The notes beneath the pieces are model-generated. The model had not been told where the DNA came from, ran no database searches, and saw only the letters and a list, made by a program, of their open reading frames with translations. Of a DNA stretch of 64,000 nt, positions 13,816 to 19,236 are shown one piece after another. The stretch spans positions 1 to 64,000 of the forward strand of contig NZ_AP021847.1 in the NCBI RefSeq assembly GCF_009176705.1. Reading direction: 5' to 3'. The position numbers were made by a program, and so were the translations under genes. How positions within the stretch are numbered: position 1 is the first letter of the stretch; each line of letters starts with the position of its first letter. Source of the DNA: Pseudoalteromonas sp. A25 (GTDB lineage Bacteria; Pseudomonadota; Gammaproteobacteria; Enterobacterales; Alteromonadaceae).

Positions 13816-14244
13816 ATGATCACATCTATTGCTCATACAACCATATATGTACTTAATCAGGACAACGCACTCGATTTTTACAAGAACAAGCTCGGTTTTG
13901 AGGTCGGTGACGATATGAAAGTGGAGGGCGATTTTAGGTGGCTAACTGTGCATCCAAAATCTACCCCTCAACTTCAGCTAGTCTTAGCAGAGCCAAAAGA
14001 GGGGCCCATGTTCAGTAAAGAGTCTGCTGAAAAAATACGAAGTTTAATCGAAGAAGGTGCATTCGGCGCTGGTGTTTTTGAAACTGACGACTGCCAAAAA
14101 ACGTATCAAGAGCTTGAGGCCAAAGGCGTGGAGTTTATCCAGCCACCCACTGAGCAGCTTTATGGTATTGAAGCCATGGCCTTAGACAACTCAGGCAACT
14201 GGTTTAGCTTGGTTGAACGAGTAAATAAATTGAATAAGTCTTAA
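13816..14244 (+). CDS. VOC family (glyoxalase-like) protein
   Basis: The intact 142-residue vicinal-oxygen-chelate protein has two beta-alpha-beta-beta-beta modules (SIAHTTIYVLNQDNALDFYKNKLGFEVGDD and GVFETDDCQKTYQELEAKGVEF). It ends LDNSGNWFSLVERVN, with His and Glu/Asp candidates for metal binding. Such proteins act as lyases, dioxygenases or thiol-transferases; the specific reaction cannot be inferred. AAGGAC precedes the start. It is probably cotranscribed with the AraC-type regulator. A long hairpin follows the stop. Confidence 0.85.
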   Translation: MITSIAHTTIYVLNQDNALDFYKNKLGFEVGDDMKVEGDFRWLTVHPKSTPQLQLVLAEPKEGPMFSKESAEKIRSLIEEGAFGAGVFETDDCQKTYQELEAKGVEFIQPPTEQLYGIEAMALDNSGNWFSLVERVNKLNKS

Positions 14245-14250
14245 CTTTAT

Positions 14251-14290
14251 CTGTCAGGTTTGATTGTTATAGCTTAATCAAATCTGACAG
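14251..14290 (+). terminator. Long hairpin after the VOC gene (possible terminator)
   Basis: CTGTCAGGTTTGATT (14251-14265) pairs with AATCAAATCTGACAG (14276-14290), a 15-bp stem with one G-T pair and a 10-base loop. No T-tract follows on the plus strand. The CTGTCAG/CTGACAG stem base recurs in the hairpin at 16308-16344. Confidence 0.5.
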
Positions 14291-14660
14291 TCGCATAAGT
14301 GCCAATCTCAGTCGTTCAACAGCAACTTGATAGCTTGCGGTCAATCATGGTCGCAGACGTTCAGCTAGCTTGTTTTTGGACATAAACGTGTTAGAGACTA
14401 AGGGCAGCTTTGTGCCATAAGCAGCCGTTAAATAGTATTATTAAAATCAACAACTCTGACCCCATTGATTCCATTTTTTCAGGTGGCTGGGTACTCACAT
14501 TATGTTGCTGCTATAGCTTTCGTTGCATTTCTATTTTATTACCTATTATCAAATATAAAACTAGGTTAAGTCAGGAAAGGCGTATTAAAAAATGGGCACT
14601 TAACTGTCAAAAAAACCAAAGGCCAGCATTTTTTACCTCAGATTTTATTAAGAAGCTTTA
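14291..14660. other. Region left of the IS element with no convincing gene
   Basis: A 90-codon frame (14410-14682) runs into the IS but lacks a ribosome binding site and resembles no protein. Another frame (about 14440-14570) encodes one hydrophobic helix ending YYLLSNIKLG but has no ATG start. The region may be decayed DNA. It contains AAACGTGTTAG (14384-14394), repeated directly at 18539-18549. Confidence 0.4.
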
Positions 14661-14727
14661 TGGACTTCCCAGACTTTGCTAGACACCCAATGAGTTACAT
14701 TGTAACTTCTAATAAAAGGTGTTTTTT

Positions 14728-15006
14728 ATGAGCAAAGGCAAGCGGTATACCCAAGAATTCAAAATCGAAGCAGTTAAGCAAATCACAGAGCGTGGTTATT
14801 CAGTTACAGAAGTATCTGAACGACTAGGTATTTGTACTAAAACCCTGTATCACTGGCGCAGCCAGCTATCTGATAAACCTAAATCGGTTAAGTCATCAGA
14901 CGAACAACTTAGGATCGCTAAACTTGAGGCTGAATTGAAACGTGTCACGGAGGAGCGGGATATTCTAAAAAAGGCCGCAAGGTACTTTGCCAGCAACCCC
15001 GAGTAA
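14728..15006 (+). CDS. IS3-family transposase OrfA
   Basis: The 92-residue OrfA has an N-terminal HTH (SKGKRYTQEFKIEAVKQITERGYSVTEVSERLGICTKTLYHW) for binding terminal repeats and a leucine-zipper-like coiled coil (about 55-88: LRIAKLEAELKRVTEERDILKKAARYF). ATG 14728 follows AAAAGG; a GTG at 14719 is in frame but less likely. A programmed -1 frameshift at A-AAA-AAG (14967-14973), in the LKK codons, would produce the OrfAB transposase. Confidence 0.9.
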   Translation: MSKGKRYTQEFKIEAVKQITERGYSVTEVSERLGICTKTLYHWRSQLSDKPKSVKSSDEQLRIAKLEAELKRVTEERDILKKAARYFASNPE

Positions 15007-15875
15007 AGTACGGCTTCATCCGAGATCACCAAGATGAGTTTTCCATTACTACGATGTGCCGCCTTTTTAAGCTGCATCGCAGTGGTTTTTATGCGTGGTT
15101 AAAAAAGCCTGTAAGTGATAGAGCGCTTGAAGATAGTCGCTTGTTAAAGCTCATTAAAGAGTTTTATATAGCCAGTGGCGGCACATATGGTAGCCCTTGG
15201 ATACATGCAGACTTGCGTGAAGCCGGTGAGCAATGCAGCGTAAATCGTGTTGCTAAGATCATGCGTCAACATAATCTTAAAGCGCAAATTGGGTATAAAC
15301 GTCGTCATATTAAAAGCGGTAAAACATCGCGGATTGCAGATAACTTATGAGCGCGTCAATTTAACCCGCCAGCGCCGAACCAATCATGGGTCAGCGACAT
15401 CACCTATGTTAGAACTTATGAAGGCTTTTTATATGTAGCAACGGTTATGGATTTATTCTCTAGGCGCATAGTTGGTTGGTCGATGGATAAAAATATGGAT
15501 AAGCACCTTGTTATAAACGCCCTGTTGATGGCTGTATATCAACGTCAACCGAAGACTGAAATACTGGTACATAGTGATCAAGGTAGTCAATACGGTAGTG
15601 CTGACTATCTTGCATTTATGAAAGAACATAACCTTGTGCCTTCAATGAGCCGCGCTGGGAACTGTCATGATAATGCGGTTGCTGAAAGCTTTTTTGCGAC
15701 GATTAAAAAACGAATAATTAGGCGTAAGATATACTCGACAAGAGAAGATGCGAAAGCTGAGATATTTAATTTTATAGAAATGTTTTACAATCCCAAAAAA
15801 CGCCATTCACACACAGGCGGTGTTTCACCTGCTAAGTTTGAGGAAGCGTACTATTCTGAGTTAAAAACTGTCTAG
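14970..15875 (+). pseudogene. IS3-family transposase OrfB, with in-frame TGA
   Basis: This frame is entered by -1 frameshifting from orfA, with an internal ATG at 15054. It carries an HTH_21-type region (MCRLFKLHRSGFYAWL) and the rve integrase core. DDE residues are visible: D in SWVSDITYV, D in LVHSDQGSQYGS and E in NCHDNAVAESFF, followed by K/R in the usual position. TGA at 15348-15350 interrupts the frame between the HTH_21 part and the catalytic core, where related elements read NLL-x-RQF. Everything else stays in frame, so a single base change (TTA or CGA to TGA) explains it. The catalytic part cannot be made without readthrough. Confidence 0.85.
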
Positions 15876-15893
15876 TAAAAGCTGGGAAGTCCA

Positions 15894-16295
15894 GAAATTA
15901 GTAATTGCGGGCAGCTACGCTCATATGACGCAAGATGTGTTGCGAAAACATATAATGTTGGATTAAAACCTGAAAAAGCAATTGTAGCGATAAATAAGGT
16001 TTCCGAGGAAGATGTAGATCATTGGTTATTGTATCAGAAAGCAAAAACATATTTAGACTTAGGAGAAAGTAATTACAAAAGTGCACTATCCAGTGCTAAA
16101 GAGTGTTTTTCTTTAGCAAAAAGTGATGAAAAAGCACTAACAAGAATATCCATATATCATGACCTGCTTAGTGGTTGCTATATGAAGCTAGATGATTCTG
16201 AAAATGCAAAAATAGAGCTTCAGAAAGCAATTGAAAATTGTTCCAATGAAAAATACAAGGTCGACTTGCAAAATAGGTTGAATAAATTGTATTAG
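15894..16295 (+). pseudogene. TPR-like protein, 5'-truncated at the IS edge
   Basis: The frame is open from the first base after the IS to TAG at 16293-16295, about 133 codons, with no start at its left end. An ATG-less upstream part (SYDARCVAKTYNVGLKPEKAIVAINKVSEEDVDHWLLYQKAKTYLD split over the region) continues into helical pairs LGESNYKSALSSAKECFSLA and DDSENAKIELQKAIEN that look like tetratricopeptide repeats. The left flank of the IS does not continue this frame, so the 5' end was probably lost by an IS-mediated deletion. The function of the original protein is unknown. Confidence 0.6.
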
Positions 16296-16307
16296 CTCAG
16301 ACTAGAC

Positions 16308-16353
16308 CTGACAGTTACCCATTTTTTCAATCGGTGACTGTCAGTTTATTTTT
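16308..16353 (+). terminator. Rho-independent terminator between TPR fragment and HEPN operon
   Basis: CTGACAGTTACC (16308-16319) pairs with GGTGACTGTCAG (16333-16344), a 12-bp stem with one G-T pair, followed by TTTATTTTTT. It sits between convergent coding sequences and probably ends both. Confidence 0.7.
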
Positions 16354-17170
16354 TAGATAGTTTACTATTGTAGTGTTCCGCTCGCTCAATTAAACCCAAT
16401 GCAACTTCGCTTATACCATCTCCGGCCTTCATCTTTCCAATAAATGTCTCTTTAAACATCGGGTAAAGGTTTGAAAATATTTCAGTGAGCGTTATCGATA
16501 GTAAAGTTACAACTTGATTGAAATCGCCCTCTATCTCAGCGATAACATTTTTGTGTTCTGCTTCAAGATCCAATTCTTCACCATTCGGTCCAGTATGCTT
16601 GCCTGAACTTCCAAAAGCTTCCATAGCACTTGCCGCATAATAAAATTCTGGAAGGCTCCCCAAAATTCTTCTCTCTCCTCGGTGAAAAAGTCTATCTCTT
16701 TCCTCACGCAAATTTTTTCCTGTTTCGGCTACTGCATCTATAAGCTTTATTAGCCTACTGTTAGCTAATATTGTTTCACTTTTAATTAATGCTTTTCTGG
16801 ATACCTGACGTGGAGGCAGGCCGACTTCATAAACTGATTCAATTAATAGAAATACGCAATCCCTAATCGACGTTACTCTACCTAACATGACATCTAGAAT
16901 CGAACGCACCCAGTTGTAACGTGAAATATTTCCAAGTGGCGTTTCGACCGGAAGATTCGTCAGTGACAATAATTGATAGATTGTTTCAAGTGACTTAAAT
17001 GTATCGTTCAGGGCATTTGCCCTGTGATGGACTTGCAACACGTAGTTCACGTCGGAAGGAGCTGTTCCAAATTCAAAATCTCGAAAGCAGAGCGGTTGGT
17101 ATAAGTCGTACACTACGCCGATGAATAGGCATCGATCTAAAGTCTCACTATCAAACTTCATTTCTGACAT
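16346..17170 (-). CDS. HEPN-motif protein of unknown function (second gene of two-gene operon)
   Basis: The 274-residue, largely alpha-helical protein contains R158-D-R-L-F-H163, an exact Rx4H HEPN-type motif with an acidic residue after Arg, in the segment NLREERDRLFHRGERRIL. The helix SIRDCVFLLIESVYEVGL lies upstream. The LREERDxxxHRGE context resembles HEPN families such as Cthe_2314. HEPN proteins with this motif are often metal-independent endoribonucleases in toxin-antitoxin, abortive-infection and CRISPR-linked systems. Its ATG begins one base after the TGA of the DUF3644 gene, so translation is coupled. No signal peptide or membrane segment is seen. RNase activity is inference. Confidence 0.55.
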   Translation of the reverse strand: MSEMKFDSETLDRCLFIGVVYDLYQPLCFRDFEFGTAPSDVNYVLQVHHRANALNDTFKSLETIYQLLSLTNLPVETPLGNISRYNWVRSILDVMLGRVTSIRDCVFLLIESVYEVGLPPRQVSRKALIKSETILANSRLIKLIDAVAETGKNLREERDRLFHRGERRILGSLPEFYYAASAMEAFGSSGKHTGPNGEELDLEAEHKNVIAEIEGDFNQVVTLLSITLTEIFSNLYPMFKETFIGKMKAGDGISEVALGLIERAEHYNSKLSKK

Positions 17171-17171
17171 A

Positions 17172-18398
17172 TCAGCGCTTGTTCCTAAGTTGGCTGCGTC
17201 TAAATTCCTTAGCAGATTCCAGCCACTTGGGTTGCTTTAAGTTGTCCACAAACCATCTAATGAATTTTTCAGAATAGCGAGGTCTCCCATCAATCACCCA
17301 ACGCATATCTGACTTTGTCTGATTATTAATTTTGTGTTTATTCAGCACGGCCTGAAAAGCGCCACTCTTGATTGAAATGGTTGCCTGCCGTTTGTTTATT
17401 TCGTAAAGGGCCTCCTTCGTATGGTAGGGGTGCGTAGCATCTGGATCTTTAGTCTTCGTGATGATAATAGCCCCTTCACCGGCATCACCCACACTAAGTG
17501 ACAGATCGCTTTCATCTTCCCGTTTAACAAGCGCAAGCCTGTAGTCAACCGGGATTGAGAACTCTGTAGAATCAACCTTCTTCGATGTTTCGTCAAAGCG
17601 TTGAATGAATTTCGATACTGATTGAGCAGCATGCTTACCATACAACTTTTGAATTAATGCTACTTCTGGAGCGGGGCCATCTACTACCAAACTCAGCATA
17701 CCCACACTTTGCCCGGCAAGAGGGGCATTACCCATTTCATTCCTATAACGTGTTTGATAGTTCAGAACGGTTGCTTGAAAAAGCCGGGACAATTGTGGCT
17801 GTAATTCTGGTATCAGCAGATGGATGGCGTGGTCACGTAAATCAATAATCGTCTCTAAATTGATTCTGACAGGATCTTTTTCTTGCAGCCTCCTTTTAAC
17901 CGCATCTGAAATGGATATACTTTTATCCCCATCATAAAAGATTTTTTCATACCCTTCAGCCTTAAGTATTTCTGCTTTGAGTAACAGTTCCCAAGCATTG
18001 ACCATCATGATTGCGAAGGCCTCAACACGATTTTTCATACTTGGTCGGTTATATACCTCAAGCGCTAAAGTAAACGCATCGAGACTCCGACTAACCAGCT
18101 TGTCGTGAAACTGCTCTTCCGGTTTTTTTTGTTTAGCTTTCGCTGACTGACTCATTACTGCAAGGAACTCGTCATTTGATAAGACACTTATCCCTTCAAT
18201 TCGGTATTTGGCACGTGAACCAGCATGAAAAATGTACTTATCAAGCAACTTCTCATTAATGTACTTGTTGATGGAGTTTTTACTATACGTGGTGCGTTGG
18301 GCTACCATCTCAGCGGTAAAGATAGTGCCGTTTTCTTCAAACTCCCTTAAAACATCAGCCAACGCGATCTGGTTATTATTCCTTGCCAATTTATTCAT
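17172..18398 (-). CDS. DUF3644 family protein (HEPN-like), first gene of two-gene operon
   Basis: From ATG 18398 the protein has 408 residues. A 439-residue reading from 18491 is possible, but family members start near ARNNNQIALADVLREF. Regions: an N-terminal winged-helix-like DNA-binding segment (about 10-60: FTAEMVAQRTTYSKNSINKYI); the DUF3644 core (about 95-215: RVEAFAIMMVNAWELLLKAEIL, then TIIDLRDHAIHLL), whose R188-D-H-A-I-H193 is an Rx4H HEPN-type motif; and a C-terminal domain rich in Lys/Arg (YHTKEALYEINKR...INNQTKSDMRWVIDG). DUF3644 proteins are uncharacterised and often lie in defence or mobile regions. Coupling to a second HEPN-motif protein one base downstream suggests a two-component system. 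Confidence 0.65.
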   Translation of the reverse strand: MNKLARNNNQIALADVLREFEENGTIFTAEMVAQRTTYSKNSINKYINEKLLDKYIFHAGSRAKYRIEGISVLSNDEFLAVMSQSAKAKQKKPEEQFHDKLVSRSLDAFTLALEVYNRPSMKNRVEAFAIMMVNAWELLLKAEILKAEGYEKIFYDGDKSISISDAVKRRLQEKDPVRINLETIIDLRDHAIHLLIPELQPQLSRLFQATVLNYQTRYRNEMGNAPLAGQSVGMLSLVVDGPAPEVALIQKLYGKHAAQSVSKFIQRFDETSKKVDSTEFSIPVDYRLALVKREDESDLSLSVGDAGEGAIIITKTKDPDATHPYHTKEALYEINKRQATISIKSGAFQAVLNKHKINNQTKSDMRWVIDGRPRYSEKFIRWFVDNLKQPKWLESAKEFRRSQLRNKR

Positions 18399-18804
18399 AT
18401 CCTTCTGTAGATCTTGATAGAAGCAAGTTGTTGGTATGCCCCTAGAACAATAGACACTTTTCAGCATTACTAAAATTAAGTCAACAGGCAAGTACCTACC
18501 AAAGCTAGTTCAGTCATGCGAAACACGTAATGGGGCAGAAACGTGTTAGCTGAACGTCCGTTTTATAAAGTTGAGTCACCCCACCAGATTACTTTGACTG
18601 TCTCTTGATAGCCCAAAGCCGCCTGTCAGGCGAAGTTTAAACCCGTTGTTTTAAACTGTAAGATCGCATATGAGCTACTAAAAATAAATAACAGGTAAGC
18701 CAGTAGGCGCCTTACACGGTGCCGCTGGTTTATAAAACACATTTCAAACGTAACACTCAACAGCAAATCTTACCCGCAGCGCCTAAATCATCAGCTGTAC
18801 TAAC
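18399..18804. other. Intergenic region upstream of the HEPN operon
   Basis: No gene is seen. The region should hold the leftward promoter of the DUF3644 operon. It contains AACACGT/ACGTGTT (about 18521-18547), a perfect AGTTTAAA/TTTAAACT hairpin (18634-18641 with 18650-18657), and AAACGTGTTAG (18539-18549), a direct repeat of 14384-14394 on the other side of the accessory segment. Confidence 0.45.
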
Positions 18805-19236
18805 TCAGCAATCACTGTCTTTGAGATTAGCAGTCATGATAACTGCTACCTCGTTAAATACATCGATCTGCTCTGGCGTAAGGCCAACGCGCATGTTTTG
18901 TATAATTTTAGCTTCAATTGATAACACTTGCTCTAATACGGCTTTACCATTATTAGTTAAGCTAAGTAGATGGCTTCGGGTATCATTTGGGTTTTTGGCT
19001 TTTTCAATTAATCCCTTTTTAATCATATCTTTAATCAGTCTTGCTAATTGACCTTTGTCTCTATCCATGTGCTCAGACATAAAAGCGGCGGTGCAATGCT
19101 CTGTTCTATTTATTAGATGAAGCGATTGTATTTCCATCGGCACAACCTCAACCCCTTGCGCTCTAATGGCTTTGAGCACCAAAGATTTAAATCTAAAGGT
19201 AAGTGCTAAAAAGCTATCGGGCAATTCAGTATTCAA
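18805..19236 (-). CDS. MarR family transcriptional regulator
   Basis: The 143-residue winged-helix regulator has the wHTH CTAAFMSEHMDRDKGQLARLIKDMIKKGLIEKAKNPNDTRSHLLSLTNNGKAVLEQ (about 48-105), including the wing motif DxRSxxLxLT, and flanking dimerisation helices. It diverges from a DUF2798 membrane-protein gene across a 93-bp region that carries two related 15-bp palindromes. This arrangement implies repression of both genes. The inducer is unknown. Confidence 0.88.
   Translation of the reverse strand: MNTELPDSFLALTFRFKSLVLKAIRAQGVEVVPMEIQSLHLINRTEHCTAAFMSEHMDRDKGQLARLIKDMIKKGLIEKAKNPNDTRSHLLSLTNNGKAVLEQVLSIEAKIIQNMRVGLTPEQIDVFNEVAVIMTANLKDSDC

Follow-up and report, generated by a model that had tools for sequence, protein, structure and literature searches.

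A DUF3644 gene coupled to an exchangeable second gene in Pseudoalteromonas sp. A25

The gene pair and its predicted proteins

Two adjacent genes on the reverse strand of Pseudoalteromonas sp. A25 form a tightly coupled pair. They lie within the first 64,000 nucleotides (nt) of contig NZ_AP021847.1, hereafter the window, and encode a DUF3644 protein (P0001) and, directly behind it, a HEPN-like protein (P0002, the partner). A first-pass annotation made from the sequence alone had read them as a coupled pair of HEPN proteins. The coordinates, strand and one-base coupling that it gave are correct: on the reverse strand the junction reads ...CGC TGA T ATG TCA..., with 1 base from the DUF3644 stop to the partner ATG. 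A scan of positions 14000-19000 against Rfam gave no match. The features of the pair are as follows.

17172..18398, reverse strand: DUF3644 gene, P0001, 408 amino acids (aa); Pfam PF12358 (E-value, E, 2.6e-45), PADLOC PDC-S19 (E 9.9e-74) and fold comparison
18159..18398, reverse strand: predicted N-terminal winged helix-turn-helix (wHTH), residues 1-80
17727..18119, reverse strand: predicted HEPN domain, residues 94-224
17820..17837, reverse strand: RDHAIH motif (R188-H193) of the DUF3644 protein, predicted ribonuclease (RNase) site
17175..17444, reverse strand: C-terminal domain, residues 319-408, restriction endonuclease (REase)-like in the literature; PF18740 E 0.01, below cut-off
17171..17171, reverse strand: coupling junction, the single base between the two genes
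16346..17170, reverse strand: partner gene, P0002, 274 aa, HEPN-like, related to Cthe_2314 HEPN (PF18730)
16682..16699, reverse strand: RDRLFH motif (R158-H163) of the partner, predicted RNase site

The DUF3644 protein is predicted to combine a wHTH with a HEPN domain. P0001 scores 154.7 bits against the Pfam family DUF3644 (PF12358; curated cut-off 27.6) and matches nine PADLOC PDC-S19 models. Its structure model resembles a wHTH followed by a HEPN domain, and HEPN-MNT and other HEPN toxin structures top the fold comparison. On this model the protein is predicted to have a HEPN helical fold; its Rx4-6H motif is conserved, and it may have RNase activity. Both the DNA-binding-type N-terminus and the HEPN fold around the motif, as first proposed, are thus borne out by the predicted structure. 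The match of the C-terminus to PF18740 reached 16.8 bits (cut-off 24.9), residues 285-316 were modelled at a predicted local distance difference test score (pLDDT) of <50, and the model did not confirm an REase. Foldseek returned no match in the PDB at E 0.001 or better for either the DUF3644 or the partner model, and sequence profiles of the two families gave no convincing relative of solved structure.

Each protein carries an R-D-x3-H motif at the position claimed for it. The string R-[NDH]-x3-H by itself is common, occurring in 7 of the 44 open reading frames (ORFs) of at least 150 aa in the window, and is weak evidence. The motifs are more than chance because their Arg and His are conserved across homologues, in line with the conservation check that the first-pass annotation had named. 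We aligned 45 partner sequences, hand-picked from 77 matches and including the partner itself; R158 and H163 are each kept in 45/45 and D159 in 43/45. For DUF3644, 42 sequences, query included, were hand-picked from the 120 listed of 243 matches; R188 is kept in 42/42 and H193 in 41/42. R-x4-H is also retained in 119 of those 120 listed matches. Remoter partner relatives (L004-L010; loci carry L numbers and genomes G numbers) share 27-32% identity and have R-N-x3-H; by eye, their 1.5-kb flanks hold no DUF3644-like gene.

The partner is named Cthe_2314-like only. Residues 82-233 of P0002 align with PF18730 (HEPN_Cthe2314), yet the score of 23.2 bits (E 7.9e-5) lies below the curated cut-off of 27.1; four of 11 first-round relatives are labelled so by Pfam. 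PADLOC, NCBIfam and PHROGs gave no match to P0002 at E 1 or better, so that only the DUF3644 protein carries the PADLOC candidate label PDC-S19. VIA-align comparison of the partner model returned mixed helix bundles. Given these fold searches, the HEPN reading of the partner is based on the motif together with a weak Pfam match. The original description of two HEPN proteins holds for the conserved motif in both; the HEPN fold of the partner is putative.

We found no partner homologues in phages and viral contigs, nor in genome contigs searched with the single sequence. A search of plasmids gave two distant matches, one on Rhizobium plasmid pRLG202 (L115:4899-6331), where the relative overlaps a different gene of 194 aa with no Pfam match. 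The HEPN-like family of the partner may thus have other gene partners. An E. coli relative sought by DNA search and by accession gave no result. For the Cthe_2314 family, the entry on contexts in a table of PMC3710099 reads “None detected”.

The wHTH-HEPN architecture is already published, and DUF3644 is already PADLOC PDC-S19; what is new is a coupled second gene that is not fixed. According to the available parts of Anantharaman et al. 2013 (PMC3710099), the EC042_2821 family, which overlaps DUF3644, has HEPN fused to wHTH, REase and zinc ribbon (ZnR) domains and occurs in restriction-modification (R-M) operons. HEPN with Rx4H characterizes the EC042_2821 and DUF3644 families there, as it does P0001. 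Unlike here, no coupled exchangeable second gene is described in those parts, and the REase part of the published architecture is not confirmed in P0001. In the openly licensed papers searched we found no mechanism for DUF3644 and no mention of “PDC-S19”; their titles and abstract starts gave no description of coupled DUF3644 with an exchangeable second gene. A single one of these papers names DUF3644 and EC042_2821, and two name Cthe_2314.

Genes in the slot behind DUF3644

The slot behind DUF3644 certainly holds different genes. Among 27 distinct DUF3644 loci, window included, a second gene lies at -4 to +3 nt of the DUF3644 stop in eight and none does in 19. The eight coupled genes encode three HEPN-like, three SIR2-like, one TIR and one MauJ-like protein. 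The conserved pairing of two HEPN genes that the first-pass annotation had put up for checking was not observed, a HEPN-like second gene being present in only 3/27 loci: the window, Pseudoalteromonas sp. XMcav2-N (L041) and a Colwellia metagenome-assembled genome (L045). This makes it unlikely that an active site built from two HEPN proteins is required.

The other occupants belong to different families. The partner in Neiella marina (L043) matches TIR_2 (E 5.6e-25) and aligns with solved TIR proteins, including the nicotinamide adenine dinucleotide (NAD) hydrolase AbTIR (E 1.8e-10). SIR2-like partners match SIR2_2 at E 2.2e-5 (L018) and 2.7e-7 (L021), and that of L019 was identified by tblastn, at 71% to that of L021. 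The partner in an Alteromonadaceae genome (L044) has a weak MauJ-like match (E 0.0094). Spacing is tight throughout: TGA-T-ATG in the window and L041, 2 nt in L043, 3 nt in L045, and overlapping junctions elsewhere (TAGTG in L044, L018 and L019; ATGA in L021).

One pair of loci places the exchange at the DUF3644 stop. With 94% identity between them, the DUF3644 proteins of L044 and L045 group as sisters in the tree (support 100/97). The DNA of the two loci matches at 86% over a stretch that opens about 20 nt ahead of the start and closes 7 nt (L044) or 4 nt (L045) short of the stop's end; no similarity was detected in the 1.4 kb past it. Beyond the stop lie unrelated genes, HEPN-like in L045 and MauJ-like in L044, and tblastn found no match for either partner in the other locus. 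DNA matches of the window to L043, L044 and L015 likewise break off no more than 23 nt from the stop's end; the match to L042, which has no partner, extends 23 nt past it. DNA matches run through both genes only between the window and L041 and among L018, L019 and L021. Partners diverge faster than DUF3644, and therefore the end-point of a DNA match does not by itself prove exchange. For L044/L045 the exchange holds up, since very similar DUF3644 genes there precede unrelated partners. In the seven-row clade around the window, three loci have a HEPN-like partner, two have none, and one each has a TIR and a MauJ-like partner.

The loci were drawn from a scan of species genomes (20 loci), viral contigs (2) and whole-genome searches, in which DUF3644 matched 27/393 related genomes, 19/394 of the order, 24/295 of the family and 11/369 of the class, in overlapping sets. 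Both genes are sporadic, the partner occurring in only 9 of the 393 related genomes (the A25 genome is included in both counts). The 27 loci remained after removal of duplicates, fragments and remote members, and all are near full length except L056 (a 327-aa ORF without the N-terminus). Removed were the window's own copies (L001, L002, L011, L073); near-copies of counted loci (L003, L012, L013, L014, L016, L017, L074, L076, L077, L078, L092-L096); fragments (L026, L028, L038-L040, L060, L091, L101, L113, L114); L071, where the contig stops at the gene; and remote DUF3644 members of about 30% identity or less, or weak (L022-L025, L027, L029-L037, L059, L061-L070, L080-L090, L097-L100, L102-L112). 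We retained two imperfect loci, L056 and L020 (470 nt downstream), as well as two close pairs, L047/L048 and L018/L019. In L057, a 72-aa ORF with a 44-nt overlap was treated as spurious, and loose downstream genes, including those of L054 (75 nt, DUF4365) and L075 (94 nt), were scored as uncoupled.

Other genes near DUF3644 were also seen. An AbiU2-type HEPN gene (Pfam E 2e-12) lies 53 nt downstream of a remote DUF3644 gene (L059:1283-3384). DUF6988 (PDC-S52) follows DUF3644 at 29 nt in L023 (638-3593) and at 194 nt in L056 (7260-7871), and a reverse transcriptase gene lies upstream of DUF3644 in L023.

A possible defence function and its alternatives

We put at roughly 50% the reading that the coupled DUF3644 gene and its exchangeable second gene form an abortive anti-phage module. 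On this reading the predicted wHTH-HEPN protein would serve as an invariant sensor and RNase, and the second gene would supply an interchangeable toxin. The DUF3644 protein would be activated by infection, or by foreign nucleic acid that its wHTH recognizes, and translational coupling would match the second protein to it. The Pseudoalteromonas sp. A25 partner would then cut RNA through its own Rx4H site; in relatives, predicted NAD-degrading enzymes would fill the same slot. The DUF3644 protein appears to be the fixed component, with the second gene apparently providing an accessory effector. We infer a sensor role, RNase activity and phage protection for DUF3644.

This arrangement resembles a known principle of prokaryotic immunity. 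In the available parts of a review (PMC10952713), TIR-type partners are usual as effectors in defence systems, and CBASS and Pycsar join a constant sensing part to a variable effector slot for TIR, SIR2 or nuclease domains, as proposed here. Unlike in those systems, no nucleotide-cyclase family was matched in the pair in a Pfam search. HEPN is not mentioned in the available parts of the BstA paper (PMC8585504).

Of 45 matching phage records, the two examined are a streptococcal satellite phage and one Staphylococcus phage, and each has a remote DUF3644 relative directly beside the integrase gene. A gene position next to a phage integrase is typical of accessory defence genes. The defence-type setting first suggested for the pair agrees with this and with the PDC-S19 match; together with the coupled HEPN-motif pair, the DNA-binding-type N-terminus and the conserved Arg and His, it survives from the earlier interpretation, while the fixed pairing of HEPN proteins does not.

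Several observations weigh against a plug-in module. Solo loci are in the majority, and the A25 genome offers no direct tie to phage. DNA matches between the window and L045, and between L041 and L045, end at or before the stop despite the shared HEPN-like partner (47% and 45% protein identity, respectively). Furthermore, the tree of 27 needs five partner changes where the least possible is four, with two label changes for HEPN and one for SIR2; because so few changes are needed, swapping is shown for few events.

The 19 solo loci suit the alternative that DUF3644 alone makes up an entire HEPN RNase defence system and that the second genes are independent, co-located since defence genes cluster on mobile DNA. 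PADLOC carries DUF3644 as PDC-S19, in which we take the “S” to mean single-gene, and some loci have defence-type genes nearby without coupling, such as DUF6988 in L023 and L056 and the reverse transcriptase in L023. However, the spacing in the eight partnered loci is tighter than loose clustering would produce, and the junction stays the same across different partners. We regard this explanation as rather unlikely.

A toxin-antitoxin or toxin-regulator pair, in which one HEPN protein acts as RNase under restraint by the second protein or by the wHTH, is improbable. Coupled genes and a DNA-binding-type N-terminus would suit it, HEPN toxins that pair with small proteins are well known, and HEPN-MNT and other HEPN toxin structures lead the fold comparison of DUF3644. 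However, neither protein matched an MNT family in the Pfam search, which leaves the pair outside HEPN-MNT; the motif is kept in both proteins; solo DUF3644 loci exist; and partners from enzyme families such as TIR and SIR2-like would be unusual antitoxins. Because such partners are usual as effectors, and because remote relatives sit beside phage integrases, we prefer a plug-in effector with a constant DUF3644 core. A stress or regulatory RNase operon that is mobile by chance would account for the sporadic occurrence and the missing phage tie, but is highly improbable given the PDC-S19 match and the distant relatives in phage or satellite.

If HEPN, TIR or SIR2 effectors do fill the coupled slot, the mechanism becomes open to testing: during infection, the second protein should come under the control of DUF3644, and it should be possible to remove the second gene separately. 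It would also yield a partner-based rule for discovering effectors, for example the MauJ-like protein.

The insertion carrying the pair

The pair lies in a segment that is absent from two related genomes.

14228..18686, no strand: inserted segment (4.4 kb) with the pair, transposase-like ORFs and a short ORF; empty site in L123; right boundary to about 15 nt
14228..14420, no strand: left end of the insertion, recurring at other loci
18530..18686, no strand: right end of the insertion, its outer 97 bases matching 18/40 genus genomes (own included)

At the empty site in G035 (L123), the 14227 side is joined to the 18671 side; G050 (L125) also lacks the segment and has about 200 other bases at the site. 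The flanking direct repeat reported by the first-pass annotation is real though imperfect (17 nt, 88%), and the insertion sequence and truncated gene placed beside the pair correspond to adjoining transposase-like ORFs (IS3-type by eye) and a short, possibly truncated ORF.

By sequence comparison, the insertion belongs to a family whose members have both ends in common but differ in cargo. We examined 20 stretches of the 23 right-end matches, leaving out the window's own and two others. Nine of the 20 have a left end in matching orientation 0.5-6.5 kb off, although some matches are short or partial (L153, L154, L155, L157, L161, L163, L166, L167, L170). Their cargo differs and includes genes for HNH nucleases, one gene that matches HEPN weakly, another of 357 aa and an integron-integrase fragment; the L153 segment has no gene of at least 60 aa. 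A complete GajA-GajB (Gabija) pair (E 3.3e-177 and 7.9e-132) lies directly beside the right end in L160 (1724-4824), where no left end was found.

We tentatively propose a broader scheme of modular immunity, which we consider possible but somewhat doubtful. The DUF3644 wHTH-HEPN protein would be a shared trigger, and the slot at its stop would trade an HEPN RNase, a TIR NADase, a SIR2-like NADase and at least one unknown enzyme; within the genus, the module would travel on a segment with ends that accompany further defence genes as well.

Some copies of the insertion look integron-related. Integron integrase pieces (TIGR02249) in broken frames adjoin the right end (L161:1763-2014 and L168:1735-2438), and one end-flanked segment has four 71-nt repeats that by eye resemble attC sites. 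A classical integron cassette was rejected for the window, because the hairpins at the ends of its insertion do not count as established attC sites; only the right-hand hairpin was folded, and as single-stranded DNA it does no better than shuffles.

Pseudoalteromonas sp. A25 has a second left/right end pair (L155:7737-8807; C2, about 696,500-697,600), which encloses the 357-aa gene. Its protein has no Pfam, NCBIfam or PADLOC match, and by eye has a VEVKTT stretch reminiscent of a PD-(D/E)xK nuclease. Elsewhere, three DUF3644 loci (L018, L021, L046) sit, by eye, just behind a gcvP-like gene, which suggests an insertion hotspot.
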